DNA of 64,000 nt from contig CP137323.1 of assembly GCA_033182465.1 (NCBI GenBank), positions 744,001 to 808,000 on the forward strand, given 5' to 3'. The DNA is from Sanghuangporus weigelae. Taxonomy: Eukaryota > Basidiomycota > Agaricomycetes > Hymenochaetales > Hymenochaetaceae. The notes under the pieces were generated by a model. The model ran no database searches. It was not told the origin of the DNA and saw only the letters and a program-made list of their open reading frames with translations. This document shows, one piece after another, positions 24,975 through 61,805 of the stretch (position 1 is its first letter; each line of letters starts with the position of its first letter). The position numbers were made by a program, and so were the translations under genes.

Positions 24975-24975
24975 A

Positions 24976-26059: not shown

Positions 26060-26061
26060 TA

Positions 26062-34990: not shown

Positions 34991-35265
34991 TCTCCCGGCA
35001 GGGGTATTTTTGAGTTGGTTGCGGTCAGTCAAGGTTGTCTGCAGCCGGGTGTGCCGGGGGGTCGTCGAGGGCCTGGATAATCGTCGGGAGGTGTAAACTT
35101 TCGTAGGTCCGGGGTCGGAGACCGAGGTTTCAGGTCGAGATGGGGGATTGTGAGAATAGGAGAAGGGGATGGAGTGAAAGTGTGTGGGGTGAAGGAATAG
35201 GACATAGGAGGGGTGAAAATTGGAAGGCATAGATCGAAAATATTGGAATGGGGAGTATAAGATTT

Positions 35266-36120
35266 TTAAAAGAACATATAATTTTTGCTGTGGGACAGAA
35301 TAGAGCATAGAGGGACATATCGGGTGATTACAAATGTGCATATATCATCACACAAGAAATAAAATCTATAGTAGGGGGAAGGAGGCATAACAATTTTTGC
35401 ATAAAACATACTAGAAGGAAGGTGATTGAGTATGGCGGCGAGCATGAGGATTTGCGGGATGGTGGTGGAGGTGGTGGCCTGTACTAAAATTTCAAACCAT
35501 CGGAGGAGGGTGAAGGCGACGTTGTCTGGAAGGCGCAAGAGGATGGCGGAGAAAGGAGTGAGAAGGTGAAAGACCGGGAGAGGACCGAGGCGGTCGGCTA
35601 AGAGGGAGCCAATGAGGTCGCAAAATTGACGCCAACGCATGGTTTGGATGGGTGCGTGGGCTGCGAGGCACTCTTGGATGTCCGGAGCAGCCCACATAAT
35701 GAGGAGAGTGGTAAATACGGGGACCGGTGGGACAGGGTTTGTGAGCCGAGCTGCGATGGAGACAAAGGTATGGATCGGCGCAGGTTCGGAGGCCGTCCAC
35801 GCATTGAGTGGCGGCAAGAGAAGGGGTGGTAAGGTCGCCGGCACCAAGTATGAGTGCGGGAGGGGCTCGATGAGGCTGCCGAACGGTGTGAGAATGGTCA
35901 GAGCGTGGGCCGGGTTCAGGAGCTCGAGCGTGTGGGAGACATCTGACGGGTGCTCGGGCGCTTGCTGAGCAAGTGGGTTTGGATTTTCAGGCACCGGTGT
36001 GTTAGGTTCGGGACCGGGGAGCATGTCGAGGATTAAATCGACAAGGTCTGGCAAAGAAGGTCGCGAGGTTGTAGCATCCATGACGAGCACAGTGTTGAGA
36101 GAAGGGTGAGCCGAGCGCAT
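35266..36120 (-). CDS. Accessory ORF between pol and 3' LTR of gypsy-A
   Basis: An undamaged 284-codon frame (ATG at 36120; a second ATG at 36081 begins MDATTSRPSLPDL). It lies downstream of the pol C-terminus and ends 275 bp before the 3' LTR. It is Pro/Leu/Ala-rich with a conserved-looking core: LLIMWAAPDIQECLAAHAP then MRWRQFCDLIGSLLAD. The ORF at 56636-57583, next to the 3' LTR of a different family, has the matching core LLYIWSTPDVQQLLSQD then DWKSFCDLLADAF. No known domain is recognised; it is not an envelope-like protein (no signal peptide, no clear membrane anchor). Shared position and sequence suggest a real third gene of these elements. The last ~40 codons may be non-native. Confidence 0.6.
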   Translation of the reverse strand: MRSAHPSLNTVLVMDATTSRPSLPDLVDLILDMLPGPEPNTPVPENPNPLAQQAPEHPSDVSHTLELLNPAHALTILTPFGSLIEPLPHSYLVPATLPPLLLPPLNAWTASEPAPIHTFVSIAARLTNPVPPVPVFTTLLIMWAAPDIQECLAAHAPIQTMRWRQFCDLIGSLLADRLGPLPVFHLLTPFSAILLRLPDNVAFTLLRWFEILVQATTSTTIPQILMLAAILNHLPSSMFYAKIVMPPSPYYRFYFLCDDICTFVITRYVPLCSILSHSKNYMFF

Positions 36121-36529
36121 TCATTGGGGGTTTCGGTGTTGCAGGGGTCACAGGTGCTATAGTTGTGACGATGTGTAGGGGGACGCGCATGCAGGTCCCG
36201 AAATATCTCTGGTGCTGCATAGTTAAGGTCCGGGTGTGATGATTAAGTGCTGCACAGCCGATTGCATAGTGCCGAGTGGCGAGCGCAGCTATAGGTGATT
36301 AAAATTAGTTAGTTGGTGTGTGATTTATGATAGTAAAGGATAACATAAGCGGAGGGCGGAGAGGCGTTGAGTGGTGAAGATTAGTGAGTGTAGTAGTGTA
36401 ATCGGAGGCCGAGAAGTAAAGAGGGAAGGCAAAGGATGAACAGGACGTGATTACTAAGAGTGTAGGATATATGCGTGGTTAATGGTTTGTGGATAGAAAA
36501 GTGGAAAGGACCGCAGCAGGGGTTCCGTG

Positions 36530-37124
36530 TTATTCGTCGGAGATGTTGATGTCTGAGTTAGAACCGTTTGAGTTTTGATCGGAAAGGCTATCAGGATCGT
36601 CGTCGGAGGCTGTGAAGTGAAAGGACCGGGATGGGCCAGGATCATCTATTGTGTCCGGATCTTCGACTTTGTTGGTGGCTGCATCGGAGACTTGTTCTTG
36701 TTTAGAAAGTTTGTCGAGTTCGGCTCTGGATGTAGAGACAAATTCTTCAACGCTCGGGATGATGGTTGACCGGGCGTGGTAGGGGATTACTCTGAAGGCG
36801 GTGTAGCGTAGGGCCGAAATTGCACTGGAAGGTTCTGCCAGGATATATGCACCACCGGTAGTGTGTTGAACGACGACCATTGGTCCCAGGTATTTCGGTT
36901 TTGCCTTTCGGTTAAGTTCGAGTTCGATTTGGGAGTTGCGGACTAGTACGAGTGTGCCGGGAGCAAAGTTGTAGTCTCTGATTGTATGCTGATATCGCTT
37001 TTCAAATTCTTGAATGGACTTAAATCGAGCCTGTAGAACTTGCTCGTGAACTTTTTTGAGGTCTCCGGGTTGTCTTTGTAGGGCCCAGGTGCGGATTGCA
37101 ATAAGTTCGTCGTGAGAGACGCGG
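36530..37124 (-). pseudogene. C-terminal end of gypsy-A Pol polyprotein
   Basis: On the minus strand after the LTR-B junction comes VSHDELIAIRTWALQRQ, LKKVHEQVLQARFKSIQEFE, YNFAPGTLVLVRNSQIELEL, KPKYLGPMVVVQHTTGG and ILAEPSSAISALRYTAFRVI, then an acidic Ser/Asp-rich tail ending at a stop at 36530-36532. This is the post-integrase tail typical of basidiomycete gypsy elements; no chromodomain is recognisable. It is continuous with the integrase fragment that now ends at 44609 on the plus strand. Confidence 0.85.
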
Positions 37125-38942
37125 TGTAGGTCGGCGGTGTTGTATCTGAAGGTGCTACAGATGTCTGTCCTGCTAAGGGTGCTGAATGTATGAAGGAACC
37201 TCCAAAAATGGGATGCCGACGCTATCAGACTCTCAAAGACCTACTACCCGGCAGGTGCCAGGAACCGTCGGAGACGTAATGGATGGGTCTAAGGATGCCG
37301 CTGGATAAAGGGAATAGGATAACAGGGCTGCCGCTCAAAAGGGGGGATCACAAGAGGCTGCCGACGTGGTATAAACTCGGCCACAGGAAGGTATGAAGCG
37401 TATAAGATGAATATAAAGGATAAAATGGAGTGAGTGGCTGGAGAAGGCGCCGCTGGGTTGTCTGATAGGATGCCTGGGTCGTCGGATGGCCGCCGACGTC
37501 GAATAGAGGGGTGCCGGACTGAGGGGGAGGCCGCAGGAATCCGCCGAAGTAGTGTAAACGCGATAGATGAGAGGAAAAGACCGTATAAGATCAATATATG
37601 GGATAAACTGGAGTAAAAGGCTGGAAAGGACGCCAAAGGGGAGTCTGATAAGAAGCCTGGGTCGCCGAAGGGTCGCTGACGTCAAATAGAGGGGCGCCGG
37701 ACAGGTATAAAGTGTGGGGAGGAGGCTCAGGGTTAAATCCCGAGCCCTACTCACTCACTGAATGTCAGAGCGGCAGAGGCGTATTGGAGGCAGCGAAGGC
37801 AAGTAGAATGTGGAGTCAAACAAGAGGAGGTGTCAAGGATAGTATATAGTCAAGGGGGAGGCTCAGTACATGAGGGGAGACTCAGAGTGAGGGATATCTC
37901 GAACTCTGGCGCTCGGTCTGGTACATGCTCTTGGAATCCTTGCTAGGCTTGGAATCCTGTCGTCTACTAGTGAATACATGCTCTATATATACTCTACTGC
38001 TGTCGCCGACACGTCCTACTGTCTGACAACACCTCCTGAGTCATCTGGGTTGCCAAGGGCCGCTGCCGGAGCACCCAGGTGAAATCTGAGAGCGGCAACG
38101 TGAGGGGGGCATCCAATCGCATGAAATATCGAGTATCTGCAATAACACGGGCGCCGGCGGAGTTGGGCTTGGCGGCGCGAGTCGGTGGCTTGGCACGCCG
38201 ATGTACTACATGCCTACCTTCCATACATGGTCTAATGGGGGCCGCCGCATCGGGGGGAAGTTGGGAAACATCGGAACCGATGATCGGAGGCTGATATCGC
38301 ATATATGAGACAAAGGGTGCATCAGCTGATGTCCCTGAGGTGTCCGATGCATCGGCGGCACTCAATACAGAGTGTGGGCAATCCATAGTGACTAATATGA
38401 GTGGCCGGAGCGGCAGTGCTGCGGGGGACTGCCGGACTGGTGGCAGATACGTCGTAATGAGGCATGTAAGCACATATGACAATATATAGCTCCCTAGACA
38501 ATGGGGGACTGCTTGGTAAGCTGTAGGAGGCGTCGGCGAGGGTACCTGAGGATATCTAAGTGTCCGCTGCATCGATCGGCGCCATGGGGGGCCGACTCGG
38601 AGGTGTCCAGAGTCGCCGCACGGCTGTACGTATGGTAAATCGTAAGATCAGCGGCATGTAGTCACTGAGGGATGTGTCCTATAGTGCCTGGTGCTGGGTA
38701 GGAGCTGTCGGCGGACCTGTCTGAGTGTCGGAGAGTCATCGGCGGATCGATCTGGGCCATAGGAGGGCGCCGCAGTACAGTACGTGTGCTGGAATCAATG
38801 GATACGTGCTCAAATGATGTCCCGAGTGCAATAGGAGTGTGCCCTCACACTCTCAGGTGTCAGCAGTGCTGGGATATGGTATCTGCAGTAAGAGGGAGCC
38901 ATAGTATGAGTGTACTGGCACAGGAGGGGCCAGTGCGCTACA
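37125..38942 (-). mobile_element. Solo LTR, family B, copy 1
   Basis: 1,818 bp, TGTAGCGCACTGG...GACCTACA when read on the minus strand. Its outer flanks are GCGG (37121-37124) and ACGC (38943-38946), which do not match each other but match the flanks of copy 2. It contains two ~180-bp tandem units (each starting near CCGGC(A/G)CCCCTCTATT) and a TATATATA box. Almost identical to 44610-46427 in opposite orientation. Confidence 0.88.
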
Positions 38943-41729
38943 ACGCTCTCCCTACCGCTACCCTTGCATACGCGGACGCATCCAATACAAGCCCATCCAG
39001 ATCCAACTCTCCCGCCAACTCACCGGATGAGACGGAAGCAGCCTTCGCAATAACCAGATCCGGAGCGCAACAGCAAAAGCCAAGGCCAACAAACCCCCCC
39101 CCCCCCAGCTGAGACCTGTCGTCGAAATCCCCCTGGTCCCACAAGCTCGGAATCAGGAATCGACAAGCGATGACTCCGACAAAGAGAACCGCCCACCAAC
39201 ACGCGCCGCGAAAGAAAAAAATATAGAGGAACCCATTGTCGAAGAAACCGAGCAAGCTCTTGCACGAAACAGCTCATCAATGACCGACACCCAACAACGA
39301 ACGAGGACCCCTCCTGTAGCTTCAGGGTCAAAGACGGTAAGGTTCGCTATAAGCAACCGGGAACCCGACGATCAATGACCGAAGCAAGCACAGACCACCA
39401 TTCCTCAGACGTGTCCAGCATCGGCAGCAGCCCCGGCACCAAATGGCGGCAATGTCCTAGTCGAGAAGGCGGTCCAGCGACCCCAGTACAAACAGATCGT
39501 TCCGGCAGCGGACCCTGAAGCAGTCAAAAACGTCTTCGCAAAGATCATGGACGCCGAAGTCACCATAATGGTCAAGCAGTTGATGGCAGCATCACCCGAG
39601 CTGCGCAAAAAGAATAGAGACTTCATAACCGGCAAACGCGAACCAACCGACGACAACGGACAAGAAATCGGAACAATAATGTACTCCGCGACCAAGGACT
39701 CGGCAAATCCGGGAGGAGCAAATATCGAAACAATCGCACCAGCCAATGTCCGGCTCCGAATGATTGCAGTCTGGATCAATGGCTCGATCCCAGCCCGAGG
39801 ACTGCTAGACACTGGCGCCTCATTCATAGCCCTGTCCCGAAATGTATGGAGGAAGATTGGTAGTCCAACGCTCACCAACCAAGCCATCACAGCAGAAACC
39901 GCCGACGGAAACGTTTCCTGATCGCTCAGCCTCATCCCAAGGCTTCGGCTCTCAATGGACGGTTTTACAGTACTCGTCCAAGCGCAAGTCATGCACCCAG
40001 CACCATTTGACTTGCTCTTAGGAAGACCATTCTTCACGCATACAAAGGCGCACTTAGTTGAGGAAGACGACGAAGACCAAACAGTTTATCTTACTGACCC
40101 AGACCGAGGTACAATTGTCACCATACCAACGCAGGAAAGATTTCCACCAAAACCATCGACCTTCATACTAGAAGGGCGAGACGGATCAATCGCCTCCGAA
40201 GTCCAGAAGCCGACGATCCAGATAAACTTCGATTGCCGATCAATCGAAGTCGAGACAACAAACATGCCGAGCATTGGCCCGAAAAAGAAAATGTCTCTCC
40301 GACGCCCATTCTTCGCCAGTTACTATACGACAAAGGGAAAATCTGTGCGACCGGCACCCAATCTTTAAGTACAAAAAGGTCGCAGATAGGATAAAGCCAA
40401 TCCCGACGACGCTACCAGAGGACTTCTGGATCATCCGCAACAAACACCCGGACCCACTGAAAGGCATGCCTATTCTCCCTACAATCCCTCCGCCCTTCGA
40501 TCCCGGCATCAGGTTCACTCAGGAATGGAAAGACGCACTTGATATTGATCCCATTGGCTTCCTTACCACCGACGAGAAAGACCTCGGATACTGGCTGATC
40601 CGCGCTCAGGAAAAAGCATTTGCCTGGGACGAATCCGAAAAAGGGTCCCTCGATTACGACTACTTCGCCCCGGTCCTTATTCTAACTGTGGAGCACGTGC
40701 CATGGGCACTAAAGAACATACCCATTCCTCCCAGAATTTTCAAGGAAGTCGTCGGCATCATCAAAGAAAAGATTACATCTGGCATTTATGAACCCTCGAA
40801 CTCGTCGTATCGCTCCCGATGGTTTTGTGTCCTCAAGAAAGACAAGAAATCACTCCAGCTCATCCACGACCTCCAGCCACTAAATGGCGTCTCAACCCGC
40901 GACCCATCAGTCCCATATCCGACAGAACACATTGCCGAGTCTTTTGGCGCCCAGTCATGTTATACTACTCTCGATCTATTTGTCGCGTTCGACCAATGGA
41001 AACTAGATGTTCGGTCCCGGACCTTACCACATTCCAGACACCTCTCAGAGTGTTTTGGTTAACTTCAATCCCTATGGGGTATATGAACTCTCAACAGATC
41101 ATGCACGCCGACATAACATTCATGCTGAAAGACGAAATTCCCAACGTCACATTCCCATATGTTGACGATGTTCCAGTCAAAGGACCGCTTACGTGGTATG
41201 AGCTGCCCGAGGGTTCCTATGAAACAATCCCCGAGAACCCAAACATCCACCGGTTCATATGGGAACACTTCAATGACGTAAACCGCATCCTGCAACGACT
41301 CAAATCTTACGGAGCAACGGCATCCGGAAAGAAAGTGGTCCTCAGCGCTCCCGAAGCAGTCGTCCTCGGACATACCTGTAACTACTCCGGAAGAATACCC
41401 GACACCGAACGAGTCAGGCTCCTACGTGACTGGCCATATTTAGAAGATGTTCATCAGACCTGAGCATTCCTCGGAACAGCCGGTGTACTCCGCCACTTTA
41501 TTGCAGACTTCGCCCGCATTGCAGCCCCACTCACAAGACTTCTCCGAAAAGACGTCCCATTCGACTTCAATGAAGAAGCACAAGCAGCCATGGAAAACTT
41601 GAAAGAAGCCATAGCAAACTCCGGCGCCATTCGGCCCATCGACTACGAATCCGACCGACCAGTCTACTTATGTGTCAACTCATCGAAGATTGGATATGGA
41701 GCAGTTATCCTACAAGAAGACGAGAACGG
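38943..41729 (+). pseudogene. Gypsy-A gag end, protease and reverse transcriptase (inverted segment)
   Basis: This continues gag (NALPTATLAYADASNTSPS) into a degenerate linker with a run of about 14 C around 39,093-39,106 that shifts the frame. The protease has VWINGSIPARGLLDTGASFI with the DTGA active site. Reverse transcriptase includes WALKNIPIPPRIFKEVVGII, YRSRWFCVLKKDKKSLQLIH and PYVDDVPVKGP (YVDD-type site). RNase H begins FNEEAQAAMENLKEAIANSG. Damage: TGA at 39919-39921 and 41461-41463, frame changes near 40,360 and 41,010-41,060. LTR-C interrupts RNase H at 41730. The segment is on the plus strand because of an inversion between the flanking LTR-B copies. Confidence 0.88.
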
Positions 41730-43218
41730 TGAAGAGTAAGACTAAAGCTTGGGAGCGTACGAAGTCGTTACGACCAGTTCCGCGGTATTCCGACTGGTTT
41801 CGCCCGGTTCTGACTGGTTTCGCTGGAGCGAGGGGACTTAGCAAGAACGCCATAGTCTAAATGGCACGTGCACCGTTCCGTGATCGGCCATCATATAAGA
41901 CACGGCGGAAGAATCACGCGACGATCCTACACGCGTCAATCACAAGTCTCCGGATCCCGGATCCGTACTCCTGACAAAGAGATTTGACCCTGCAGCGTCA
42001 TCCACAGTCCCTCTCCCATTCAAAACGTCGCAGATTTGCCCTGTAAGGCTAGCCGAGGTCTTTCCAAGTCTTTTCCCCAAGTTCCGACTCGTTCCGCTCA
42101 AAGACACCCGGTTCCGAAGGCTTCGCTTATGATCTCACCTTTCTATATGCGTCCCGTTTATTTCTTTATGCTCTCGTTCCGACCATGCTTAGTATTGTTT
42201 CTTTCTGTTTTATGTGTCCCTTAACCATTCATATGCGCCCCTCTCCATGGTGGATAAGTGATATGCGTTCCCCTTTTTCTTATGGCTTATGTTTTCTGAC
42301 AGATGGGAGGCTCAGTTTGGACGCTTAGTATAAATTTAGCACGACTCTCGTAGTGGAGGGGGGGGGGGAGTTCTCACACCGTCTCTAGTCCCCCAGCTTC
42401 GAGTTCTTCTTGTTCGTAGAAAACTCTCTCGTCTCTAAAGCATAATATACGATATTTCGTGTTCTGTACAGTCGATCGGTGACCTCTCTTCGCAGCAGAG
42501 CCATTCGTACGTTCGTATAGTTCGCCTGGTACGTATAAAGGACCCATCCTGTCTCTGTCATCCGGATCGAAACTTCATTGCGTGTTCCGATCGGTTTCGC
42601 TGGTTTCGCTCGTAACCCAGTTACTTAGCGTGCCGCGTGCTTTCGGTCTCGTAACACCTTCCCCTCTCCACTGTCGTCGGAAAAGGACACCATATTATCC
42701 CTTTCCATTACCGTAAAGTCCCTCTGTCTCTTGTATCACGTTAAGGTCGCTCAGTTACCGTCCCCGTCCTTCATATCGCGTTTCGAATCGTTACGCCGCG
42801 TTCCGACACTTTAGACTCCGAGTGAGATCGGCTGCCGTCGCTTCCCAGTGAGTTAGCACGGTCGATTAGTCACGTTCGAGTTGGTGGTTCGACTAGCGTA
42901 GCCTTAGTTAGATTAGTTCTCGTGCCTTGTGTAAGTCGGCTTTAGTCCAGAGCTCGCAGTTGAGCCGGAGAGTCGATTTAGCCTTTGCACCGCCACCATC
43001 AATCTCGGGAGAAGCCCATCCTCGGAATCCTTCCTCGAGCGCTTCCCACACGTTCCTCAGCCCTCATACAACCCTTCTCTCGTATATTCCATTATCCCTT
43101 CATTTCCACTTGCCTTTGGTCTAGGTGTATCTCTCTGCTAACTACTCAAAGGTATTCTAGGGCAGCCCCTCGAACTTTATATTCCCTGTCCGGTATCAGA
43201 ACGCACACAGGAGTTTCA
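41730..43218 (+). mobile_element. Solo LTR, family C, copy 1
   Basis: 1,489 bp beginning TGAAGAGTAAGACTAAAGC and ending CACAGGAGTTTCA, with a perfect ACGG target duplication (41726-41729 and 43219-43222). Removing it restores the RNase H frame across DENG|LRYPC. A TATAAAT lies near 42,330, followed by a G-rich run. Confidence 0.9.
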
Positions 43219-44609
43219 ACGGCCTCCGTTACCCCTGCCAGTTCATGTCCGGAACCTGGAACAACCGGGAACGAAACTACTCGCAACCCAAAATAGAACT
43301 TTTTGGCCTGTTCCGAGCACTATACGAAGCACGCATATACCTAATCGGACTCAACAACCTGTTCATAGAAGTCGACACAAAGTACATTAAAGGCATGATC
43401 AACAATCCGGACCTTCAGCCGAATGCAACAATAAACCGGTGGATAGCTGGTATACTCTTATTCTCATTTACCCTCATCCACGTCCCGGCATCCAAGCACA
43501 CTGCCCCCGACGGCCTCAGCCGATGAAACCCACAGCCTGACGATCCCCCGAGAGACGAAGGATACGAAGATTGGATCGACCAACAATATGCATTCTGCCT
43601 AGCCCAGGTAGATACTAGCGACGATGAATCTACCACCGCCTCAAGTAACCCCAACTCGGACATCGAAGCCGAACCGACATAATTCATTCCCTGCTCAGAA
43701 AAAGCAACCGAGGCTGACCAGTTCCTCCGCACAATCTTGGGCTTCCTACAAGAACCAAAACGTCCACTGGCCTAGGACGAGCAGCAATTCCGTCAATTCG
43801 TCTCCCGGGCCACCCGATTTTTCAACATAGACGGACAACTCATGCATAAAACTCCCAACGGTCCACCACAGCTTGTACTTCCCCCAGAAAGACGGTATGC
43901 CGTACTATAAACCACTCACGACGAGCTCGGACATAAAGGATTCTTTACTGTCCGAGCCCGCGTACTCGACCGATTCTGGTGGCCAATGCTAAACAGCGAC
44001 ATCCACTGGTATATCAAATCCTGTCACGAATGCCAAGTACGACAATTTGCAAAAATTAAGATCCCGCCAACACTACCTACCCCGGCTCCACTCTTCGGAC
44101 GCATACACGTTGATGTAATGCTCCTGCCACGATCCGGACCATACCGTTACATTGTACAAGCCCGAGACTCGTTATCAGCATACCCGGAATTCCGGCTCCT
44201 CACAAACGACAACTCCCAGGCCATTGCAAAGTTCATTTTCCAGGACATCATCTGCCGATGGGGCTCTGTCCACGAAATCATTACTGACAACGGCGCATCC
44301 TTTGCAAAGGATCTTCCCCCACTACTCGCTAAGTACAACGTCCACCATATCCAAATTTCTCCATACAACTCCCGTGCAAATAGGATTGTTGAATGACGGC
44401 ACCTCGACCTCCGAGAAGTACTCATGAAACTCTCCAGCAATCAACCCGAGAAATGGTCCAATCACGCATACCACGCAATTTGGGCCGAACACATCTCCAT
44501 CCAACGCTCTACAGGATACAGCCCATATTACATCGTACATGGAGTAGAGCCGACACTCCCTTTCGATCTTGCCGAACAAACATATATCTCCCCGGCCTTC
44601 ACCTCCCGC
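43219..44609 (+). pseudogene. Gypsy-A RNase H end and integrase (inverted segment)
   Basis: RNase H continues with LFGLFRALYEARIYLIGLNN, FIEVDTKYIKGMINN and VPASKHTAPDGLSR. The integrase has the HHCC zinc finger (HDELGH...CHECQ) and catalytic residues in IHVDVMLLP, EIITDNGASF and PYNSRANRIVE. Stop codons interrupt it: TGA 43524-43526, TAA 43680-43682, TAG 43773-43775, TAA 43908-43910 and TGA 44394-44396 (in the RIVER-type motif, where CGA is expected). The reading frame leads directly into the tail at 37120 on the minus strand once the LTR-B copy is removed. Confidence 0.9.
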
Positions 44610-46427
44610 TGTAGCGCACTGGCCCCTCCTGTGCCAGTACACTCATACTATGGCTCCCTCTTACTGCAGATACCATATCCCAGCACTGCCGACACCTGAG
44701 AGTGTGAGGGCACACTCCTATTGCACTCGGGACATCATTTGAGCACGTATCCATTGATTCCAGCACACGTACTGTACTGCGGCGCCCTCCTATGGCCCAG
44801 ATCGATCCGCCGATGGCTCTCCGACACTCAGACAGGTCCGCCGACAGCTCCTACCCAGCACCAGGCACTATAGGACACATCCCTCAGTGACTACATGCCG
44901 CCAATCTTATGATTTACCATATGTACAGCCGTGCGGCGACTCTGGATGCCTCCGAGTCGGCCCCCCTTGGCACTGATCAATGCGGCGGACACTCAGACAT
45001 CCTCAGGTACCCTCGCCGACGCCTCCTACAGCTTACCAAGCAGTCCCCCATTGTCTAGGGAGCTATATATTGTCATATGTGCTTACATGCCTCATTACGA
45101 TGTATCTGCCACCAGTCCGGCAGTCCCCCACAGCACTGCCGCTCCGGCCACTCATATTAGTCACTAGGGATCGCCCACACTCTGTATTGAGTGCCGCCGA
45201 TGCATCGGACACCTCAGGGACATCAGCTGATGCACCCTTTGTCTCATATACGCGATATCAGCCTCCGATCATTGGTTCCGATGTTTCCCAACTTCCCCCC
45301 GATGCGGCGGCCCCCATTAGACCATGTATGGAAGGTAGGCATGTAGTACATCGGCGTGCCAAGCCACCGACTCGCGCCGCCAAGCCCAACTCCGCCGGCG
45401 CCCGTGTTATTGCAGATACTCGATATTTCATGCGATTGGATGCCCCCCTCACGTTGCCGCTCTCAGATTTCACCTGGGTGCTCCGGCAGCGGCCCTTGGC
45501 AACCCAGATGACTCAGGAGGTGTTGTCAGACAGTAGGACGTGTCGGCGACAGCAGTAGAGTATATATAGAGCATGTATTCACTAGTAGACGACAGGATTC
45601 CAAGCCTAGCAAGGATTCCAAGAGCATGTACCAGACCGAGCGCCAGAGTTCGAGATATCCCTCACTCTGAGTCTCCCCTCATGTACTGAGCCTCCCCCTT
45701 GACTATATACTATCCTTGACACCTCCTCTTGTTTGACTCCACATTCTACTTGCCTTCGCTGCCTCCAATACGCCTCTGCCGCTCTGACATTCAGTGAGTG
45801 AGTAGGGCTCGGGATTTAACCCTGAGCCTCCTCCCCACACTTTATACCTGTCCGGCGCCCCTCTATTTGACGTCAGCGACCCTTCGGCGACCCAGGCTTC
45901 TTATCAGACTCCCCTTTGGCGTCCTTTCCAGCCTTTTACTCCAGTTTATCCCATATATTGATCTTATACGGTCTTTTCCTCTCATCTATCGCGTTTACAC
46001 TACTTCGGCGGATTCCTGCGGCCTCCCCCTCAGTCCGGCACCCCTCTATTCGACGTCGGCGGCCATCCGACGACCCAGGCATCCTATCAGACAACCCAGC
46101 GGCGCCTTCTCCAGCCACTCACTCCATTTTATCCTTTATATTCATCTTATACGCTTCATACCTTCCTGTGGCCGAGTTTATACCACGTCGGCAGCCTCTT
46201 GTGATCCCCCCTTTTGAGCGGCAGCCCTGTTATCCTATTCCCTTTATCCAGCGGCATCCTTAGACCCATCCATTACGTCTCCGATGGTTCCTGGCACCTG
46301 CCGGGTAGTAGGTCTTTGAGAGTCTGATAGCGTCGGCATCCCATTTTTGGAGGTTCTTTCATACATTCAGCACCCTTAGCAGGACGGACATCTGTAGCAC
46401 CTTCAGATACAACACCGCTGACCTACA
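44610..46427 (+). mobile_element. Solo LTR, family B, copy 2
   Basis: 1,818 bp, TGTAGCGCACTGG to GACCTACA. Its flanks are CCGC (44606-44609) and GCGT (46428-46431): mismatched with each other but complementary to those of copy 1. Tandem ~180-bp units start near 45,855 and 46,035; TATATATA is at about 45,561. Confidence 0.88.
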
Positions 46428-47675
46428 GCGTTCTCCGGGTTGTCATAGTATGGATCGTACGGTGGAAATACGGCTTCATAGACATTAGCCGATTGATGAG
46501 GGGGAATGTCTCGGGTGAGGTTCAAAGGTAAAGTTATGCCGGGTGGTAGCTGATCAGGGTTGGCCTTGTAGTATCGGTTTGCTCTTTCAATTAATGTCAA
46601 CCCTGGCGGGTCCCTTGGGAACCTGTCACCATTTGCCAAAACAACGAAACCTCGTTCGTCGGTCGTGAAGACGTGTTTATTGATTAGTTTATCGTGTTCG
46701 GGGCAGTTCCGGAACCTGTGTCCGTTTGCTCCGCACATTGTGCACTCAAATACAGGCGGTTTCTGTGCTGGGGGCCGTGCTGTTTCTCGCCGTGTCCGAT
46801 CTTCACGTAGTTCTCGGATTTCCTGGATGAGGAGTGACAGGACGTCTTCCTGTTTCGGAGTGGGCCGGGGTGGATCGGGGTATGAGTTCTCTTCGGGCCG
46901 ATGGTACCTTGAGTTGTATGGGTCATAAGACGCCCTGTATGTCGTTGGGGCTTGGTAAAAATCGCGTTCGACATGCGAAAGGCTTGGTGACGTGTGGACG
47001 TGTTCGTATGGTGGTTCATATGGTGTATATGCGCCTCCGGAAATGATTCGTTTGATTTCTCGGATGACAACTGTGAGATCCCAGGGAACTCCGGGTGGCT
47101 GCGTATAATCTACAAATCGCAGCGCGTGTTCGAGTCTATCGTTGAGTGCCATAGGGATTCCATCTCGGAAGTATCGCTTCTGATCTAGTTTTGAAATGTA
47201 TTCGCTCGAAACTAAGTAGCCGGAGATTCGGAGAAAGTCCCTGTAGTAGTTTCCTAAGGTGGCCGACGTCCAGTATCGGTCACCGGCGTAGTCTTTAGTG
47301 AGTTTTATTAAATCGGTGATCGTATATCTCCTGAACGCCGTTGGGTAGTATGTGTATACTTCTCGTCGGAACACGTCAAATTCTCTTCTCCGAGCGGTCT
47401 TTAGTTGCTGCCATAGGAGTTCGTCGTCGGAAGGGGCGTAGAATCGGGCCCACGTGATCATCTGTCTGTCATTAAGTCTGGCGTTTACTCCGTAGTGTTT
47501 GATGTCATCGAAAAATCTGACAACTGAAGCGGGTTTGTTAACTGGGCTGAAAGTCGGGGCCCGGCGGTCTCCTCGAGAGGGCATAACAGCTCCCGGGGCC
47601 TTTGGGTTGTCGCCCTGAAGTGGTACGTTGTCCGGGTCCGTAAGGTCTGGCAAATTCAGGCTCCATGTGTCGTGT
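46428..47675 (-). pseudogene. Gypsy-A Gag, main part
   Basis: An open minus-strand frame of roughly 415 codons from TWSLNLPDLTDPDN near 47,675 to YDNPENA at the LTR-B junction. It includes a capsid-like helical region (FFDDIKHYGVNARLNDRQMI, IKLTKDYAGDRYWTSATLG) and one CCHC zinc knuckle, CTMCGANGHRFRNC. The open frame runs on artificially into LTR-C sequence up to 47,746. The true N-terminal part is at 50,673-51,108 on the plus strand. Gag coats the element's RNA in virus-like particles. Confidence 0.85.
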
Positions 47676-48256
47676 CTTTGGTCTCGCAACACCTTCCCCT
47701 CTCCGTTGCCGTTGGAAAAGGACACCATATCATCCCTTTCCATCACTATATAGTCCCTCCGTCCCTCATATCATGTTTCGACCCACCTAGTAATCCTCCC
47801 TTGCTCATTGTATCACGTTTCGAATTGTTATGCCACGTTCCGACACTTTAGACTACAAGTGAAATCGGCGGCCGTTGCTTCCCAGTGTGTTAGCCCGGTC
47901 GATTAGTCACGTTCGGGTTGGTGGTTCGACTAGTGTAGCTTAAGTTAGATTAGTTCTTGCACCTTGTGTTTGTTGGCTTTAGTCCAGAGCTCGCAGTTGA
48001 GCTGGAGAGTCGATTTAGCCTTCGCACCGCCACCATCAATCTTGGGAGAAGTCCATCCTCGGGACCCTTCCTCGAGCGCTTCCCACGCATTCCTCAGCCC
48101 TCATATAACCTTTCCCTCATATATTCTCTTATCCCTTCATTTCCGCTTGCCTTTGGTCAAAGGTGTAACTCTCTGCTGACCACTCAAAGGTATTCTAGGG
48201 CAGCCCCTCGAACTTTATATCCACTGTCTGGTATCAGAACACCTACAGGAGTTTCA
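47676..48256 (+). mobile_element. LTR-C copy 2, 3' half
   Basis: Matches about 42,640-43,218 of LTR-C copy 1 (GTCTCGCAACACCTTCC to GGAGTTTCA). It is followed by CCGA (48257-48260), which pairs with TCGG at 52026-52029 next to the 5' half. The left boundary is an inversion breakpoint inside gag. Confidence 0.85.
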
Positions 48257-49154
48257 CCGATTGGTACATCTGTTTGATCACTCTGTCCAGTTTGTTCGCC
48301 GACTTAGGTGCACGGTTCGGAGGACCCTTCCTGGACAGTTTTCATGTTGTTTCACAGTTCCTTGCAGTCCGTCTGACCCTTATCGCGTCAGTTTCACACT
48401 CCTTGCTATGATTTCATCCTGTTTCACAGTTTCCTGTAGTCCACTAGACTTCTGTCTCGTCGGTTTCACGCTCCTTGTTGTGGTTTTATTATGTTTCACC
48501 TCACGTCTTGTCACGATCCTCCCCCAGTCCCAGATCAGCCGTTTTGTACATGTTTTGGACCCCCATAGTCTATAAAACCCGCCCAGATGTCATAGTTTTC
48601 AGATAGCAAATACCAGAGATCTGTTCAGCGCACGCATCTTCTGTTCCAAAGCCTCTCAGACCGTCCCGACCAACTCTGTCATTCATAGAAAGTCGTAGTA
48701 CCCACCTTGGGTGTCCCGTCTTCCTTGTCTAGACTAGTCCGGACCTCCCAGGAGTGACTCGGATACTCTCAGCTTGTCTTCTTTCTCTGTCGACTCATCT
48801 CCGAGGTGATCAAGTCACCGAAGTATTCACTCAGTTCACCGCAGCACGTCCGATTTGGTCTCCCTAGACGACCATTGAGTGTCACATCTTGCCTACGTGT
48901 ATTCGCTCCCCCTTTTCTTCCCTTTTTAGATAGTTCACACTGACCGTTCCGGCCGGAGGTATTCCGACTATCCACAGTTCCCACAGAGTAGGCCGGAGTC
49001 TCGGTCTATCTCAGGGGAGTCTTCCGGATCACCCTTCTTTGTTTGGTTTCCCCAATTCGTTCTCACTCGCTCCCTATAGGATCGAACGCCCTAGCCTGCT
49101 AGGATCGCACCTACAGACCTAGTCCAATTGACCACCCACCCTATCGATCATACA
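48257..49154 (+). mobile_element. 5' LTR-A of gypsy-A, 3' portion
   Basis: 898 bp matching the last part of LTR-A from CCGATTGGTACATC to CGATCATACA. It is followed directly by a primer-binding site, identifying it as the end of the element's 5' LTR. The rest of this LTR lies at 52026-52256 and 54044-54362 in opposite orientation. Confidence 0.85.
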
Positions 49155-49156
49155 TC

Positions 49157-49174
49157 TGGAGCCCACCGCGAGGG
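49157..49174 (+). promoter_or_regulatory. Primer-binding site of gypsy-A
   Basis: TGGAGCCCACCGCGAGGG starts 2 bp after the LTR end. A TGG start complements the CCA tail of a tRNA, as required for reverse-transcription priming. The tRNA is not identified. Confidence 0.65.
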
Positions 49175-49333
49175 TTTCTCAAGTTAATATTGTATCCATA
49201 CTTCATCCTGACGCAGACTCCCGACCATTACTCCATTAACGATACGACGGTCTAAGCAGATCGCCGACCGGTACAGCCCTGGACCAGCTCATCCATATGC
49301 TCACGCACTTTCCAGCCGCACGCAGTCTACCGA
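49175..49333 (+). other. Untranslated leader of gypsy-A
   Basis: The leader between PBS and gag, with no open frame of note. It is cut by LTR-D at CCGA (49330-49333) and resumes at 50673. Confidence 0.6.
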
Positions 49334-50672
49334 TGTAGTGCGCCGCACTTGCCTGTACCGGTACGTCGGTACAGGCCCCTCAGTACTCTGTACAGTATAC
49401 CATCGTGCGCCGACCGCTACACCTCCGCCGCTCCTTAAGACCCTCCAAACCGCCGCTCTTTGATTCGCGGCTCAACCAATACGTCCGCCGCCTCCCGTCC
49501 TTCGAAGACTTCCCAAACCGAGTACGCTTGGCCAGCCGCACTTTCTGATACGCGGGCGCCTGGAATGTTGCAGCGGATGTATCGGCTACGGCGGCGGAAG
49601 GATATCGAACCGTATAGCCGATGGAATATTTGTCGGCTCCTGTTGATTGGCTTATCCGACGTCGGGTAGTGGTTTTACAAGGTCCCAGGTACCACGTTTC
49701 ATGTTCATATTATGCTGCTTCGTGCGCCGAGTCCGATTGTCGGACGCGGCGGCCACTCGCGTATTCCCCTTTTAGTATTATTGCCTCCCCTGACGTTTCA
49801 TATTCGTGTGGTGCGACCACTTAGCGATCCGAGCGCGCCCGATGATGATGCGCCGCGCCAATCACCGCCAGCCCGATCAGCGCGCGCCCGTGTCTTGGCA
49901 GCTTCGCGGCGCGCCCCGATCTTCGGGTCCGCACCGATTGCGCGCCTGTGACGCGCCGTCACTGTCGCCGCCTCTGTGACGCTCTTCCCCAGCATTCCCC
50001 AGTATATATAGACCTCATGTATGTAGTGTTCAGCAGCAGTAGTTCAGAATAGATCTCAGTGCACTCCTCTCGTCTCTATTAGCCCTTTTGCTCTCTATCG
50101 CCTCCGCCGAAGATCGTGTGCCGACACAAGACGCCGCCCCCGTTTAAGGGAATAACAGGGGCACGTGCTCACTCGCCACTGCGCAAGTGATCGGCAGAGC
50201 TATCCCCCGTCCTGGGAATCGGCAGCGCCATCGCCCTCTTGATACTCGGCGACACCGTCGCTCTCCTGGTAATCGGCGACACCGTCGCTCTCCTGGTAAT
50301 CAGCGGTACCGTCGCTCTACTAGTAATCGCCGCCGCTCGCAGGACTCGACAGCGCCGTCGCTCTATTGCTTATTCGCGACGCCGACATCTTGACTCGTCG
50401 GCGGCTTTGTCTCGTACATTATCGGCGGCGTCCCCTTTATACGCGGATCATACCATAGCCCTTACGATTGAGCTCTCCCCACGACTGAGCGCGCATCCCG
50501 ATCGGCAGCAGTGCTTCCGGGTCAAATTGTCCCCCACGGCACCAAGCTGTCCAGGAGGTCTAGCCACGAGTTGGATCCCTTCTTACCTCTCCGATCTTTG
50601 ACACCGCCGACGCCTCTCTGTGGTCGAACGCCGTCGCCTTCGCCGCTGCTTAAGAGGGTCTGATAGTCTACA
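49334..50672 (+). mobile_element. Solo LTR, family D, copy 1
   Basis: 1,339 bp, TGTAGTGCGCCGCACTTG to GATAGTCTACA, with perfect CCGA duplications (49330-49333 and 50673-50676). A TATATATA box lies just after 50,000. A 27-bp unit (GGCGACACCGTCGCTCTCCT...) is repeated near 50,247-50,330. Shorter than the copy at 57707-59406. Confidence 0.9.
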
Positions 50673-51108
50673 CCGACACTGGTGTAGATTCCATCCCTGG
50701 GGGATTTGCCGAATCTCCTTCAAAGCGAAGGTTCATCATCCCTCCTGACAACTCCATCATTATTGAAAACCCCACCGAAGAAGACCTCTGACCATTGCCG
50801 GAGAGCCCGCGCCCTCTCCCGAGACTACCATCCAAATTGTTCACTCCCACATTTGATACATCCACCACGTTAGCATCAGATATAATCGACTCACAGAGAG
50901 AATCATCATTACCGTCAGTACCGTCGTACGAACAACATCAGCCAGAAGAAACGATCTTTGAACCCTACCACTTTGAACAACCCGAGATGACCTCCGGAGA
51001 TGGATACACGTGCTATCCCCATGACCGAGACCCACCCAGACGTGACCGTTCTCAATCCCCACCACCGATAAACCAACACCAAGACAGGAACCTATATCCA
51101 GACACAGG
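50673..51108 (+). pseudogene. Gypsy-A Gag, N-terminal part (inverted segment)
   Basis: The plus-strand frame encodes IPGGFAESPSKRRFIIPPDN and ENPTEEDL, a TGA (probably Trp TGG originally), then PLPESPRPLPRLPSKLF to RNLYPDTGH, where it meets LTR-C. PDTGH joins in frame to TWSLNL of the main Gag segment at 47,675 if the inversion is undone. A clear initiating ATG is not seen. Confidence 0.75.
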
Positions 51109-52025
51109 GCACGCTAAGTAACGGGGTTACGAGCGAAACCAGTGAAACTGATTGGAACATGCAAGGGGTTTCAGTATGGGTGATTGGTTTGAGAGGAGTC
51201 CTTTACACGAACACGGTGAACTATACAAACGTACGAACGGCTCTACTGTAAAGAGAGATCACCAATCGACTGTACAGAACACAAAATATTGTATATTAGA
51301 CTTTAGAGACAAGAGAGTCCACTATGAACAAGTAGAACTCGAAGCTCGGGGACTTGAGACGATTTAAGAACTGCTCAGCTCCAACTAAGCTCCCCCCCTC
51401 ACTATGAGAGTCGTGCTATATTTATACTAAACGTCCAATGCTGAGCCTCCCATCGGTCAGAGAACATAAGTCATAAGAAAAAGAGGAACGCATATCACTA
51501 TCTACAAAGGAGAGGGGCGCATATGAATGGTTAAAGGACACATAAAGCAGAAAGAAACAATACTAAGCATGATCGGAACAAGAGCATATTGAAATAAAAG
51601 GGACGCATATAGAAAGGTGAGGGCATAAGCGAAACCTTCGGAACCGGGTGTCTTTGAGCGGAACAAGTCGGAAGCTGGGGAAAGGACTTGGAAAGGCCTC
51701 GGCTAGCTTAACAAGTCAAATCTGCGACATTTTGAATGGGAGATGGACTGTGGACGACGCTGCAGGGTCAAATCTCTTTGTCAGGAGTACAGATCCGAGA
51801 TCCGTAGACTTGTGATTGACCTGTGTAGGATTGTCACGTGATTCTTCCGCCATGTCTGATATGATGGCCGATCACGGAACGGTGCATGTGCCATTTAGAC
51901 TATGGCGTTCTTGCTAAGTCCACTCGTTCCAGCGAAATCATTCGAAACCGGGCGAAACCAGTCGGAACACCGCGGAACTGGTTGTAATGACTTCGTACGC
52001 TCCCCAGCTTTAGTCTTACTCTTCA
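51109..52025 (-). mobile_element. LTR-C copy 2, 5' half
   Basis: On the minus strand it begins TGAAGAGTAAGACTAAAGC at 52025 and matches LTR-C copy 1 up to GTTACTTAGCGTG. Together with 47676-48256 it makes one full-length LTR-C (about 1,499 bp against 1,489). The adjoining TCGG (52026-52029) is the complement of the CCGA at 48257-48260. Confidence 0.85.
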
Positions 52026-52256
52026 TCGGTGAACTCCGATCGGAAGTCCGAACCTCGGAGGCCACTTTGGCAAGGTCCGAACAACAGAGCGCACCTCGTG
52101 GAACATCTAGGATGAAGGTACGCGACCGTTGGGTACCTCAAAACAGGTCGGAACGATCCCTGGCAGTGTGAAATGCTGATGAAAAGGCCTAGGGTCCCTT
52201 CAGGAGTCTGGGCCCAGGCTTCGGAGTGCCAATATCTGCTTGGGTGACTGAGGCGG
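52026..52256 (-). mobile_element. 5' LTR-A of gypsy-A, middle portion
   Basis: 231 bp of LTR-A on the minus strand, bounded by the LTR-C insertion at 52025 and the LTR-B insertion at 52257. Across LTR-B the sequence continues at 54044 exactly as in the intact copy near 55,690. Confidence 0.85.
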
Positions 52257-54039: not shown

Positions 54040-54043
54040 GCGG

Positions 54044-54362
54044 AGGTTGGCGAGTGGTAGTGTGACGAAGTATGGACAATGAAATATGGTGTGGCGCCTA
54101 TGGTGCAGTATTAGTGGGTCTTCGGGGTCTCGGAATGTGACATATGTGCAATGGAAGGTGAAATGGGGTGAGCCAAGATATGTACAAAGTCTCGGGCACA
54201 TCCTAAGGTATGGCGGAACGCTCAGAAGGATCGAATCGAGTCGTATATACCCTTTGTGACTGTTGGAGTCGCTCGGGCAGCTGATACACCAGTGTGTTGG
54301 AACACTGGTGAAGTATGTACAATACTCGACCACTGACGCCCAGAATAGCGGTGTGCGCTACA
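54044..54362 (-). mobile_element. 5' LTR-A of gypsy-A, outer portion
   Basis: 319 bp on the minus strand starting TGTAGCGCAC at 54362, the outer edge of gypsy-A. The flank is CCGT (54363-54366), one base different from CCGC at the other end of the element. Confidence 0.8.
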
Positions 54363-54570
54363 CCGTCCTTGAGGCATTGAGCGCACCAATTATAGAAATA
54401 CACGAGAGACCCCGCATATGGTTGCTAGGTTGTCACTGAGGCATCCTCAGCCGAAAACCCACTTGCCAACCCACAACCAGTCATCGAGACAGACATCCCT
54501 GGTCCGTCCATATCGTATACCGTGTCCAACTTGGTATCCACACTCATCCGAACAGATTTTGAGTGGGCAG
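54363..54570. other. 208-bp spacer between two LTR-A copies
   Basis: Sits between gypsy-A and another LTR-A in the same orientation. No PBS, polypurine tract or convincing coding sequence is seen. It may be old target sequence shared by both insertions. Confidence 0.4.
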
Positions 54571-56013
54571 TGTATGGTCGATATTGTGGGTGGACCATCA
54601 GACTAGGTCTGTAGGTGCGATCCTAGCAGGCTAGGGTGTTCGATCCTATAGGGAGCGAGCGAGAACAAATCAGGGAAACCAAACAAGGAAGGGTGATCCA
54701 GAAGACTCCCCTGAGATAGACCGAGACTCTGGCCTACTCTGTGGGAACTGTGGTTAGTCGGAATGGCTCCGGCTGGAACGGTCAGTGTGAACTATCTAAA
54801 AAGGGAAGAAAAGGGGGAGCGAATACACGTAGGCAAGATGTGACACTCAATGGTCGTCTAGGGAGACCAAATCGGACGTGCTGCGGTAAACTGAGTGAAT
54901 ACTTCGGTGACTTGATCACCTCGGAGATGAGTCGACAGAGAAAGAAGACAAGCTGAGAGTATCCGAGTCACTCCCGGGAGGTCCAGACTAGTCTAGACAA
55001 GGAAGGTGAGATACCCAAAGTGGGTACTTCGACTTTCTATGAATGACAGAGTCGGTCAGGACGGGCTGAGAGGCTTCGGAACAGAAGATGTGAGCACTGA
55101 ACAGATCTCTGGTATTCACTATCTGAAAACTACGACATCTGGGCGGGGTTTATAGACTATGGGGGTCCAAAACATGTACAAAACAACTGATCTGGGACTG
55201 GGGGAGGATCGTGACAAGACATGAGGTGAAACGTAATGAAACCACAACAAGGAGTGTGAAACCGACAAGACAGAAGTCTAGTGGACTACAGGAAACTGTG
55301 AAACAAGATGAAATCATAGCAAGGAGTGTGAAACTGACGCGATAAGGGTCAGACAGACTGCAAGAAACTGTGAAACAACATGAAAACTGTCCAGGAAGGG
55401 TCCTCCTAACCGCGCACTCAAGTCGGTGAACAAACTGGACGGAGTGACCAAACGGATGTACCAAACGGCGAACTCCAATCAGAAGTCCGAACCTCGGAGA
55501 CCACTTCGGCAAGGTCCGAACAACGGAGCGTGCCTTGTGGAACATCTAGGATGTAGGTACGCGACCGTTGGGTGCCTCAAAACAGGTTGGAACGATCCCT
55601 GGCAGTGTGAAACGCTGATGAAAAGCGCTAGAGTCCCTTCAGGAGTCTGGGTCCAGACCTCGGAGTGCCGGTATCTGTTCGGATGACTGAGGCGGAGGTT
55701 GGCGAGTGGTAGTGTGACGAAGTATGGACAATGAAATATGGTGTGGCGCCTATGGTGCAGTATTAGCGGGTCTTCGGGGTCTCGGAATGTGACATATGTG
55801 CAAAGGAAGGTGAAATGGGGTGAGCCAAGATATGTACAAAGTCTCGAGCGTGTCCTAAGGTATGGCGGAGCGCCCGGAAGAATCGAATCAAGTTGTATAT
55901 ACCCTTTGTGACTGTTGGAGTCGCTCGGGAAGCTGATACACCAGTGTGTTGGACACTGGTGAATTATGTACAATACTCGACCACTGATGCCCAGAATAGC
56001 GGTGTGCGCTACA
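54571..56013 (-). mobile_element. LTR, family A, additional copy
   Basis: 1,443 bp on the minus strand from TGTAGCGCAC at 56013 to CCATACA at 54571. The flanks are GCAG (54567-54570) and CCGC (56014-56017), which do not match, so one side has probably been rearranged or lost. It truncates the internal region of the family D element on its right. Confidence 0.8.
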
Positions 56014-56635
56014 CCGCCACATCACAGCCACACCCTCCGACCCCTGCCAAGCTCTTCCGAAAACAGAACTGACGCCGATCAATTCGCCGATCCGCGGCAC
56101 TCTCTGCCTACCATACTCCGACTATATGCACACCGATTACCGTCCCCAGACCAGTATGCCGACATATATGCCACCATAAGCACATGCCAAATGTCCTTGA
56201 CTGGCTCTTGGACCCCCAGATCCTCTGAACAATTGTAATATTATCTCATTATACCCTCCGACCCGCCGGCCACTGTATCCCTATCTGGTACCAGATCAAG
56301 ATCACGATATGACGACACCCCCCTATGATTAACCATTTAGACTTTCTCCCCGGCGCCTATTCTAATCGAAGTCCCCTCCCGCCGACGAATCGCCTACTTG
56401 AAACACCTTCGCCTAGGCCTCCTTCCATCGGAACATCAGCCCCTTCCTCGCCTGTCCCAGCCCTTACACACCAAACACCAACAATATATACTTGCGGAAT
56501 TTTTTTTTCTTTTCTTCAACCAGCCGCTCTACCAGCCCTGACTGCAATCGCCATGCACATATAAAAGCGCCATGACTCCTACTGTATACTAGCCGATTTA
56601 CCCAACCAGTCCCAGCCCTCCGGCACTCCACCAAA
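56014..56635. other. Internal remnant of the family D element upstream of its accessory ORF
   Basis: About 620 bp with no recognisable gag or pol sequence. It includes a short T run near 56,500. Most likely it is the spacer between pol and the accessory ORF; the rest of the element is missing to the left. Confidence 0.4.
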
Positions 56636-57583
56636 ATGGCTCAACCCAACCTCACCCTCGCTGAAGCCTTTCCCGCCACTCCGGCACTACCACTCCTACA
56701 AGTCCCCCACCCAGTCCACTTCTCTGGGAATGCACTCCCACTAGCAAACTTCAACTTTGCCCAGCTGGTCACCGTCCCTGACCACCCCATGCACCTACAG
56801 CCCTGGCACCCAGACCATGTAGCCATACCACATGTCCTTATCGGCGCACTACGCAGCCTACAACACCCTTCTGCCGATATGGCGACACTTATATTTCTCC
56901 TCTACATCTGGTCCACACCAGATGTCCAGCAACTGCTCAGCCAAGATCTGTGCCTCACCGCAAACGACTGGAAATCCTTCTGCGACCTCCTCGCCGATGC
57001 CTTTCCGGCGGCGACGCGCATCCCCGCCAACCACACCTCTGGGATTCTTCAAATCGTACCCTATATGCTCAACAAGTTCCATCTGACACCTGCCGACAAG
57101 GCGAGGCTTGTCTGCCGCGTCCGCGAGTCTCTCCGCATCGGCGGTGTCCTCACAATTTCCCCAGTAACCCTCGACGCCCCCCTCCACGAAGGCGTCGACC
57201 CCCACGCGCCCCTCGCTATCCTCAGAGAAGGACCCATCGCCATCGAAAACGCCGTCATCTACTCCGACGCGGCATGGGAGCTCTCTCAGAACGCCATGCT
57301 CCAAGTCCTACGCCTATTCGAAGAGTGCGGCGACGACGACCTTCGCGACTGCGCCGCTAACATTATCACCACCTTACTCAAAGTACAACACTACTCTCTC
57401 TCAGCTATTCGAGCAGTCCAAGACGTCGAAGACAACCTTCTAGAACTCCGTCAAACCATTGAAAATCAAACCGCCGACCTCCCTATCCAGCCCGACACAG
57501 CCCCATTTACCGCCGCCGCTGCTCTGCGCGCCACCTACACGGAGCAACACCCGCCGATGATCGACCTCACCATCAACGAGTGA
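56636..57583 (+). CDS. Accessory ORF next to 3' LTR of the family D element
   Basis: An intact 315-codon frame, ATG in good context (CCAAAATGG), stop TGA at 57581-57583. It starts MAQPNLTLAEAFPATPALPL and has a helical core LLYIWSTPDVQQLLSQD, DWKSFCDLLADAF, then LVCRVRESLRIGG, VLRLFEECGDDDLRDCAANI and a C-terminal coiled stretch AVQDVEDNLLELRQTIEN. The core matches the ORF at 35266-36120 (W..PD[IV]Q..L then W..FCDL). It lies 123 bp before the 3' LTR, with a polypurine tract between. No known domain, signal peptide or membrane segment. Capsid-like or regulatory functions are possible but unsupported. Confidence 0.65.
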   Translation: MAQPNLTLAEAFPATPALPLLQVPHPVHFSGNALPLANFNFAQLVTVPDHPMHLQPWHPDHVAIPHVLIGALRSLQHPSADMATLIFLLYIWSTPDVQQLLSQDLCLTANDWKSFCDLLADAFPAATRIPANHTSGILQIVPYMLNKFHLTPADKARLVCRVRESLRIGGVLTISPVTLDAPLHEGVDPHAPLAILREGPIAIENAVIYSDAAWELSQNAMLQVLRLFEECGDDDLRDCAANIITTLLKVQHYSLSAIRAVQDVEDNLLELRQTIENQTADLPIQPDTAPFTAAAALRATYTEQHPPMIDLTINE

Positions 57584-57697
57584 ACTAGGCCAAGGCCACA
57601 GACATACCACCCAGTTACATCTTTAGCCCCACTCAATTCCGTTCTGAAACACCCCTACACTACCCAGCATTTTTTTTAATCATTTTTTTAGTTCGTT

Positions 57698-57706
57698 AGA
57701 AGGAGA
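57698..57706 (+). promoter_or_regulatory. Polypurine tract of the family D element
   Basis: AGAAGGAGA abuts the first base of the LTR, as expected for the plus-strand primer site of an LTR retrotransposon. This shows that 57707-59406 is a 3' LTR and not a solo LTR. Confidence 0.7.
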
Positions 57707-60573: not shown

Positions 60574-60575
60574 TA

Positions 60576-61663: not shown

Positions 61664-61805
61664 TAAATCTCGGCCTCGTGGAGACTTAAAATTTAGCTAA
61701 GCTCAATGTGTCTGAAATCTTCCGTGAGATGCTAAATCTTGTGTTGGATATGAAATGTAAAATTTATTTGATGCATCTCGTAAACACCGAGATTTTGACA
61801 CACTC

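Follow-up and report, generated by a model that had tools for sequence, protein, structure and literature searches.

A 64,000-nucleotide stretch of the Sanghuangporus weigelae genome (contig CP137323.1, positions 744,001 to 808,000; hereafter the window) holds two families of long terminal repeat (LTR) retrotransposon, A and D, each with an extra open reading frame (ORF) just ahead of a 3′ LTR. We consider it very probable that these frames, ORF3-A and ORF3-D, belong to one protein family and represent a third gene placed before the 3′ LTR of both families, and after pol in family A. The best overall explanation, in which this third gene encodes an accessory adaptor with SUMO docking, seems to us reasonably likely as a whole. 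The frames exist as the initial annotation had read them, and are accompanied by the following features.

35266..36120, minus: ORF3 of family A (protein P0001), 284 codons, C-terminally truncated relative to its C7 relative
35028..35084, minus: remnant of an ORF3 C-terminus outside the 284-codon ORF, 19 residues, 84% to residues 283-301 of P0007
34991..34996, minus: purine run GGGAGA ahead of the family A 3′ LTR, read from the sequence
33548..34990, minus: family A 3′ LTR, TGTAGCGC ... CATACA
56560..56567, plus: TATAAAAG, also retained in C2, ~70 bp ahead of the ORF3-D start
56636..57583, plus: ORF3 of family D (protein P0002), 315 codons, intact, C-terminal PPMIDLT
57700..57706, plus: purine run AAGGAGA ahead of LTR D
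57707..59407, plus: family D 3′ LTR, 5′ side GAGA (internal), 3′ flank CCGT
49333..50671, plus: separate solo LTR D, CCGA/CCGA duplication, empty site in C2

Each frame lies upstream of a purine run and of an LTR beginning TGTAG, and the two LTR sequences are distinct, with zero A-D matches when the window was compared with itself; both points had been made in the annotation. The shared core proposed there was borne out: residues 105-172 of P0001 align with residues 54-121 of P0002 at 18/68 identities (BLASTP E 1e-7, as a single comparison), with the core pattern W..P..Q.LL ... W..FC.L. The score of 96 for this pair compares with a best of 71 when the partner sequence was shuffled 3000 times, and no shuffle (0/3000) reached the real score here or in the pairings with a further protein, P0007 (115 vs a best shuffle of 76 for P0001; 144 vs 72 for P0002). 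P0007, the third lineage, is an open 310-codon frame at C7:1765285-1766217 that is 30-36% identical to D-type and 33-34% identical to A-type copies over the alignable part; by its sequence it links the A and D forms.

The gene order of family A could be followed on one strand of C2 by tblastn and LTR matching, through protease (PR), reverse transcriptase (RT) and integrase (INT).

C2:321939-323288: gag
C2:325535-326058: PR
C2:326369-327646: RT region
C2:330362-330844: INT
C2:332923-333903: INT C-terminus
C2:334318-335166: ORF3
C2:335445-336889: LTR A

Its gag and PR-RT-INT order identify family A as a Ty3/gypsy (Metaviridae) LTR retrotransposon. Asp_protease_2, gag-asp_proteas and Integrase_H2C2 were matched above the Pfam cut-off and rve below it; the RT region had no Pfam match, and its YVDD, which we take to be an RT motif, was spotted by eye. 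No chromodomain was found at the integrase C-terminus, where the frame 36530-37240 matched no Pfam family at E <= 1.

The placement of ORF3-D follows from its LTR. LTR D starts and ends pair with identical 4-bp flanks in 21/24 cases. The three exceptions are L049 (CTGA/GCGG), an extra upstream start in L066 that shares its end with another pair, and the LTR next to P0002. On its 5′ side this last LTR abuts GAGA, from the purine tract AAGGAGA; its 3′ flank, CCGT, is a normal CpG target. Because it joins a purine tract to a target site without a duplication, we conclude that P0002 lies inside an LTR D element, whose 3′ LTR this is and whose internal DNA lies to the left. The family A 3′ LTR in C2 has the same pattern (GAGA/GCGG). 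As a class LTR A is less clear than LTR D on duplications, since 2/12 pairs are identical and 5/12 have one mismatch, with some pairs being chance end matches. Internal regions bearing ORF3 are rare among the listed LTRs: matches reach into internal DNA at at least 3/40 A-junctions and at least 2/41 D-junctions. A role for the separate LTR D at 49333-50671 as 5′ LTR of the P0002-bearing element was considered and discarded, because that copy has its own CCGA duplication and an empty site in C2. All that remains of the P0002-bearing element in the window and C2 is ORF3, purine tract and LTR. For family A, gene order in C2 bears out the annotation's view of a related third gene lying behind pol and ahead of the 3′ LTR of a gypsy element; for family D, the purine tract and target site support membership in an element.

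Relatives, selection and decay

Whole-genome searches (33.87 Mb, 13 contigs) gave, among the matches listed, five ORF3 loci in three lineages, including a second D-type locus at C2:313768-314707 (89%, with a 2-bp frameshift) and a second A-type locus at C2:334318-335166 (96%, with one TAA). Relatives of P0002 are filed as hypothetical proteins of S. weigelae (95%), S. sanghuang (61%), S. vaninii (61%) and S. baumii (74%, 189 aa), the first three sharing the 315-aa length. One D-type protein, P0003, is presumably from another strain or assembly, because neither D-type locus of this genome encodes it exactly. A profile search in which 7993 candidates were scored returned the same four proteins as the first P0002 search, and P0007 as a protein query gave zero matches at E <= 10; across these protein and profile searches, which covered predicted proteins only, no ORF3 relative was found outside the four Sanghuangporus species.

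The integrase C-terminus core has four relatives among the matches listed besides the window and C2 copies (34-48% identity). No ORF3-like frame occurs in the 2.8-2.9 kb behind three of them (C10, C7:1982157 and C1), and the fourth (C3) is interrupted by LTR B. Queries with P0001, P0002, P0004 and P0007 behind these integrases yielded chance matches only (tblastn, best E 0.049), while the same search recovered the C7 ORF3 at 1e-8 to 1e-13 as a positive control. The annotation had asked whether related elements lack the ORF; 3/3 uninterrupted regions do, and because their LTRs are unassigned we count these as other families and not as proven losses. Its description of ORF3 as conserved in a fungal gypsy lineage is too broad for a gene with five listed loci in three lineages, relatives in Sanghuangporus only and three of three related integrases without it. 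We conclude that ORF3 is one small, fast-evolving protein family, carried by two LTR families within a single fungal genus.

Purifying selection maintained ORF3-D up to the point at which one of its copies broke. The window and C2 copies differ 23/13/49 by codon position (85 in total), with dS 0.237, dN 0.053 and dN/dS 0.22 over 313 codons. When changes of matching kind and CpG status were placed randomly on the window ORF (window-to-C2 direction only), 57.9 nonsynonymous changes were expected and 39 were seen, with 0/5000 simulations as low; without CpG sites the values were 40.6 and 22 (0/5000). For the A pair, 13/24 changes were nonsynonymous against 15.9 expected (P 0.15), and selection was not significant, so that the dN/dS comparison suggested in the annotation favours purifying selection for D and leaves A without a significant result.

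These data also bear on whether the frames are chance open stretches, a reading that we regard as scarcely credible overall and refuted for D. Frames of 193-225 aa occur in the non-coding LTR B as well, an ATG-initiated ORF of at least 284 codons arose in 1/200 first-order Markov shuffles of window 33545-59407 (0/200 for at least 315 codons), and family A shows no significant selection; set against this are the three-way homology, the relatives in other species and the codon-position pattern of D.

Purifying selection would also fit a reading of ORF3-D as a host gene, or a former element gene since domesticated, standing alone beside an LTR. One annotated protein cluster in each of four species, the missing pol, and TATAAAAG with a good start context just upstream fit this reading. 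TATAAAAG may possibly be ORF3-D's own promoter; it was not seen before P0007 or P0001 on inspection by eye. We nevertheless think a host gene unlikely, because the adjoining LTR has a purine tract instead of a 5′ target duplication, relatives occupy the same place before LTR A twice, and the proteins are 61% identical in species whose average nucleotide identity with S. weigelae is 90-95% (PMC10803629).

The annotation had called both frames undamaged, which is right for D and wrong for A. The window ORF3-A is, as judged from alignment, a decaying, truncated copy: its last ~47 residues do not match P0007, which has beyond the shared core a C-terminal half that P0001 is without, and the remnant at 35028..35084 lies outside the ORF. 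In the C2 A-type copy the ATG of 36120 is not kept and a TAA interrupts the frame. An intron in P0001 (GTATGT at codons 237-239) was considered and left unproven. Nor is an open frame unique to ORF3 in family A, as the gag frame 46403-47770 is open as well. The last ~87 internal bases and first 41 bases of LTR A are 95% identical between window and C7, LTR A is about 89% identical, and the ORF3 cores are 33-34% identical in protein; template switching near the 3′ end would produce such similar LTRs and spacers with diverged cores.

Protein features and a possible role

No obvious known domain had been seen in ORF3, and none emerged: P0001, P0002 and their relatives matched no Pfam or NCBIfam family above cut-off, and searches of PDB sequences gave chance-level matches. 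Sub-threshold matches were set aside (TAF1C_C 0.12, AAA_6 0.19, TacA1 0.19, a chloride channel 1.4, designed helical proteins 0.25), as was a shikimate kinase model (P0002 0.015, P0004 0.022, P0005 0.052; 13-15 bits vs a cut-off of 186). AlphaFold models from 5- and 7-sequence alignments suggest helices; their predicted local distance difference test (pLDDT) values of 44.6 and 42.3 are too poor for fold comparison.

In errantiviruses and gypsy, env follows pol as a third gene, ahead of the 3′ LTR. Membrane helices usually reach ~1.6-2 in a 19-residue hydropathy mean. The highest such means in the seven ORF3 proteins are 1.07-1.64, with P0005 borderline at 1.64, and by hydropathy none has a clear membrane helix, unlike errantivirus env. 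NxS/T sites number two or three in P0002, P0003 and P0006 and are absent from P0001, P0004, P0005 and P0007. An envelope-like membrane protein of the errantivirus kind therefore appears highly improbable, although ORF3 occupies the slot in which env usually lies (PMC5408684).

A second capsid-like protein, diverged from Gag and helping or restricting particles, would fit the helical prediction and the W..FC.L followed by an acidic/aromatic stretch, which may faintly resemble Gag cores. No Pfam gag match was obtained, and BLASTP against the family A gag was unconvincing (best E 0.068, P0001), so that we hold this reading to be improbable.

The feature most open to interpretation is the tail of the D-type proteins. 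Across P0002, P0004 and P0005, 3/36 of columns 271-306 are kept and 6/6 of columns 307-312 (PMIDLT). The tail P[M/I]IDLT is present in 5/5 D-type proteins, as PMIDLT in P0003 and PIIDLT in P0006, and is predicted to be the core of a SUMO-interacting motif (SIM) of the (I/V)DLT type. Such cores prefer SUMO2/3, and the VIDLT of PIAS1 is part of one of the tightest SIMs (PMC4907222, PMC3901395). As P0007 and P0001 are without the motif, a C-terminal SIM would be a feature of the D lineage.

In the explanation we favour, ORF3 would be a soluble, non-enzymatic, mostly helical accessory protein with a message of its own, built of a conserved core and a C-terminal half that is long and helical and might self-associate. 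In the D lineage the SIM would dock it on SUMO-modified nuclear host proteins and so help the element to evade host restraint or reach target sites. We infer a nuclear adaptor for ORF3-D from the SIM-core tail, from the SIM literature and from the restraint of yeast Ty1 transcription via the SUMO-deconjugating enzyme Ulp1 at nuclear pores (PMC8585004). The adaptor role is tentative, and the SUMO step is doubtful. Rather improbable, too, is the fuller proposal that an orphan accessory gene engages the host SUMO pathway by its C-terminal SIM, serving a retrotransposon as SUMO antagonists or tethers serve viruses, while the ORF3 body is swapped near the 3′ LTR via template switching.

Several points weigh against this explanation. 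Family D has no attached pol, and the 5′ part of its element is missing in both window and C2. ORF3-D is 90.9% identical between copies, compared with 91.1% for its 5′ flank, 94.3% for the 3′ spacer and 95.6% for the LTR part, and its selection is measured from one pair of copies. The helix prediction comes from models with pLDDT 42-45. The SIM is absent from P0007 and P0001, and its first position is Met, not Val or Ile, in 4/5 D-type proteins.

Rearrangement and neighbourhood

Family A is rearranged in the window.

36530..37124, minus: family A integrase C-terminal part; the 236-aa frame 36530-37240 opens with ~40 codons of LTR B
37125..38942, minus: solo LTR B, flanks GCGT/CCGC
38943..44609, plus: inverted family A block, with PR 39379-39921, RT region 40226-41463 and INT 43911-44396
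44610..46427, plus: solo LTR B, flanks CCGC/GCGT
46403..47770, minus: family A gag frame, its first ~33 codons supplied by repeat E; sub-threshold zinc knuckle match (Pfam E 0.0013)
54040-54362 (minus), 52025-52256 (minus), 48248-49154 (plus): pieces putatively assigned to a broken family A 5′ LTR

The PR-INT block was inverted through recombination between the two oppositely oriented LTR B solo copies, as seen from the 4-bp flanks: CCGC/CCGC and GCGT/GCGT in C2, they are swapped in the window (CCGC/GCGT at the plus copy, GCGT/CCGC at the minus copy). A second inversion probably displaced the piece at 48248-49154. The insertion is old, since the putative 5′ LTR pieces match the family A 3′ LTR at 91-93% identity; the outer flanks of the element, ACGG and GCGG, differ by one mismatch. 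Repeat E (1.5 kb, 41727-43221, with parts at 47671-48259 and 51108-52028) breaks family A pol in the window at a site where C2 has none; in C2 and C7 it also occurs within copies of LTR A and LTR D.

About 32 kb of the window (26178-58047) has a segmental duplicate in C2 (about 311000-344000), inverted and with internal rearrangements. For this reason the A and D copies in C2 share the window's mutual arrangement, and C2 does not count as a second, independent instance of it. The duplicate is mostly 97-98% alike, but 92% over 55532-58047 around ORF3-D, as if this patch had a different history.

Integration of LTRs A, B and D looks targeted to CpG, with a 4-bp NCGN duplication (e.g. 49333-50671, 37125-38942, 44610-46427). 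CG stands at -3,-2 of distinct 5′ flanks in 15/18 cases for A, 28/34 for D and 10/10 for B, compared with means of 1.2, 2.2 and 0.55 at other offsets. Eight of the nine non-CG flanks are TG or CA, as expected of decayed CpG; the remaining one is the purine tract next to P0002.

Elsewhere, palindrome copies with arms of ~520 bp and a 46-bp spacer lie at 24973-26062 and 60574-61666 (93% and 99% complementary), with a relative at C7:1771404-1771996, and a 1.2-kb inverted repeat (17296-18491 and 23780-24975, 5.3 kb apart) is 100% complementary in the repeat scan and 99.9% by BLAST. A fragment of a cysteine-rich coding frame (54366-54570, minus), cut by LTR A, is ~90% identical to C7:1762956-1763163. 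The 457-aa frame at 30755-32128 has a QLQ domain (E 8.6e-10) and four ~90-bp in-frame tandem repeats at 31337-31687.

Comparison with known accessory genes

We found no earlier description of the ORF3 family or of its possible SUMO docking in the literature searched, in which the extra genes of basidiomycete gypsy elements are dUTPases; subscription journals lay mostly outside that search, and absence is unproven. Accessory genes are where retrotransposons adjust to host control, and a small family of orphan proteins whose docking motif can be tested would offer a handle on how gypsy elements are restrained in mushrooms and how they respond. It also shows that “hypothetical protein” entries of medicinal fungi include genes of such elements.

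Other hosts are already known to have elements with additional ORFs behind integrase (PMC5408684), and basidiomycete gypsy elements to carry additional genes of other kinds (PMC2774666). A close parallel is found in bdelloid rotifers, where the third ORF downstream of pol, as here, varies in type between families, encoding a GDSL esterase, a DEDDy exonuclease or env; it is usually a separate transcription unit, and one type has a coiled coil (PMC5408684). Unlike those ORFs, the present family matches no Pfam family. Basidiomycete gypsy elements with a dUTPase (Novikova and Blinov 2008, cited in PMC2774666) share with ours the possession of an extra gene; in them the dUTPase lies between PR and RT (PMC5408684), while ORF3 follows INT and P0001, P0002, P0004, P0005, P0006 and P0007 have no Pfam dUTPase match. 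Orchid Ty3/gypsy elements with an m6A demethylase domain likewise acquired an extra coding domain recently, but have plant hosts and an enzyme domain (PMC9289625). Lastly, the D-type tail resembles the SIMs of PIAS1 and RNF4 in its (I/V)DLT core (PMC4907222, PMC3901395), and differs from them in being predicted from sequence and in standing at the extreme C-terminus of a retrotransposon protein.

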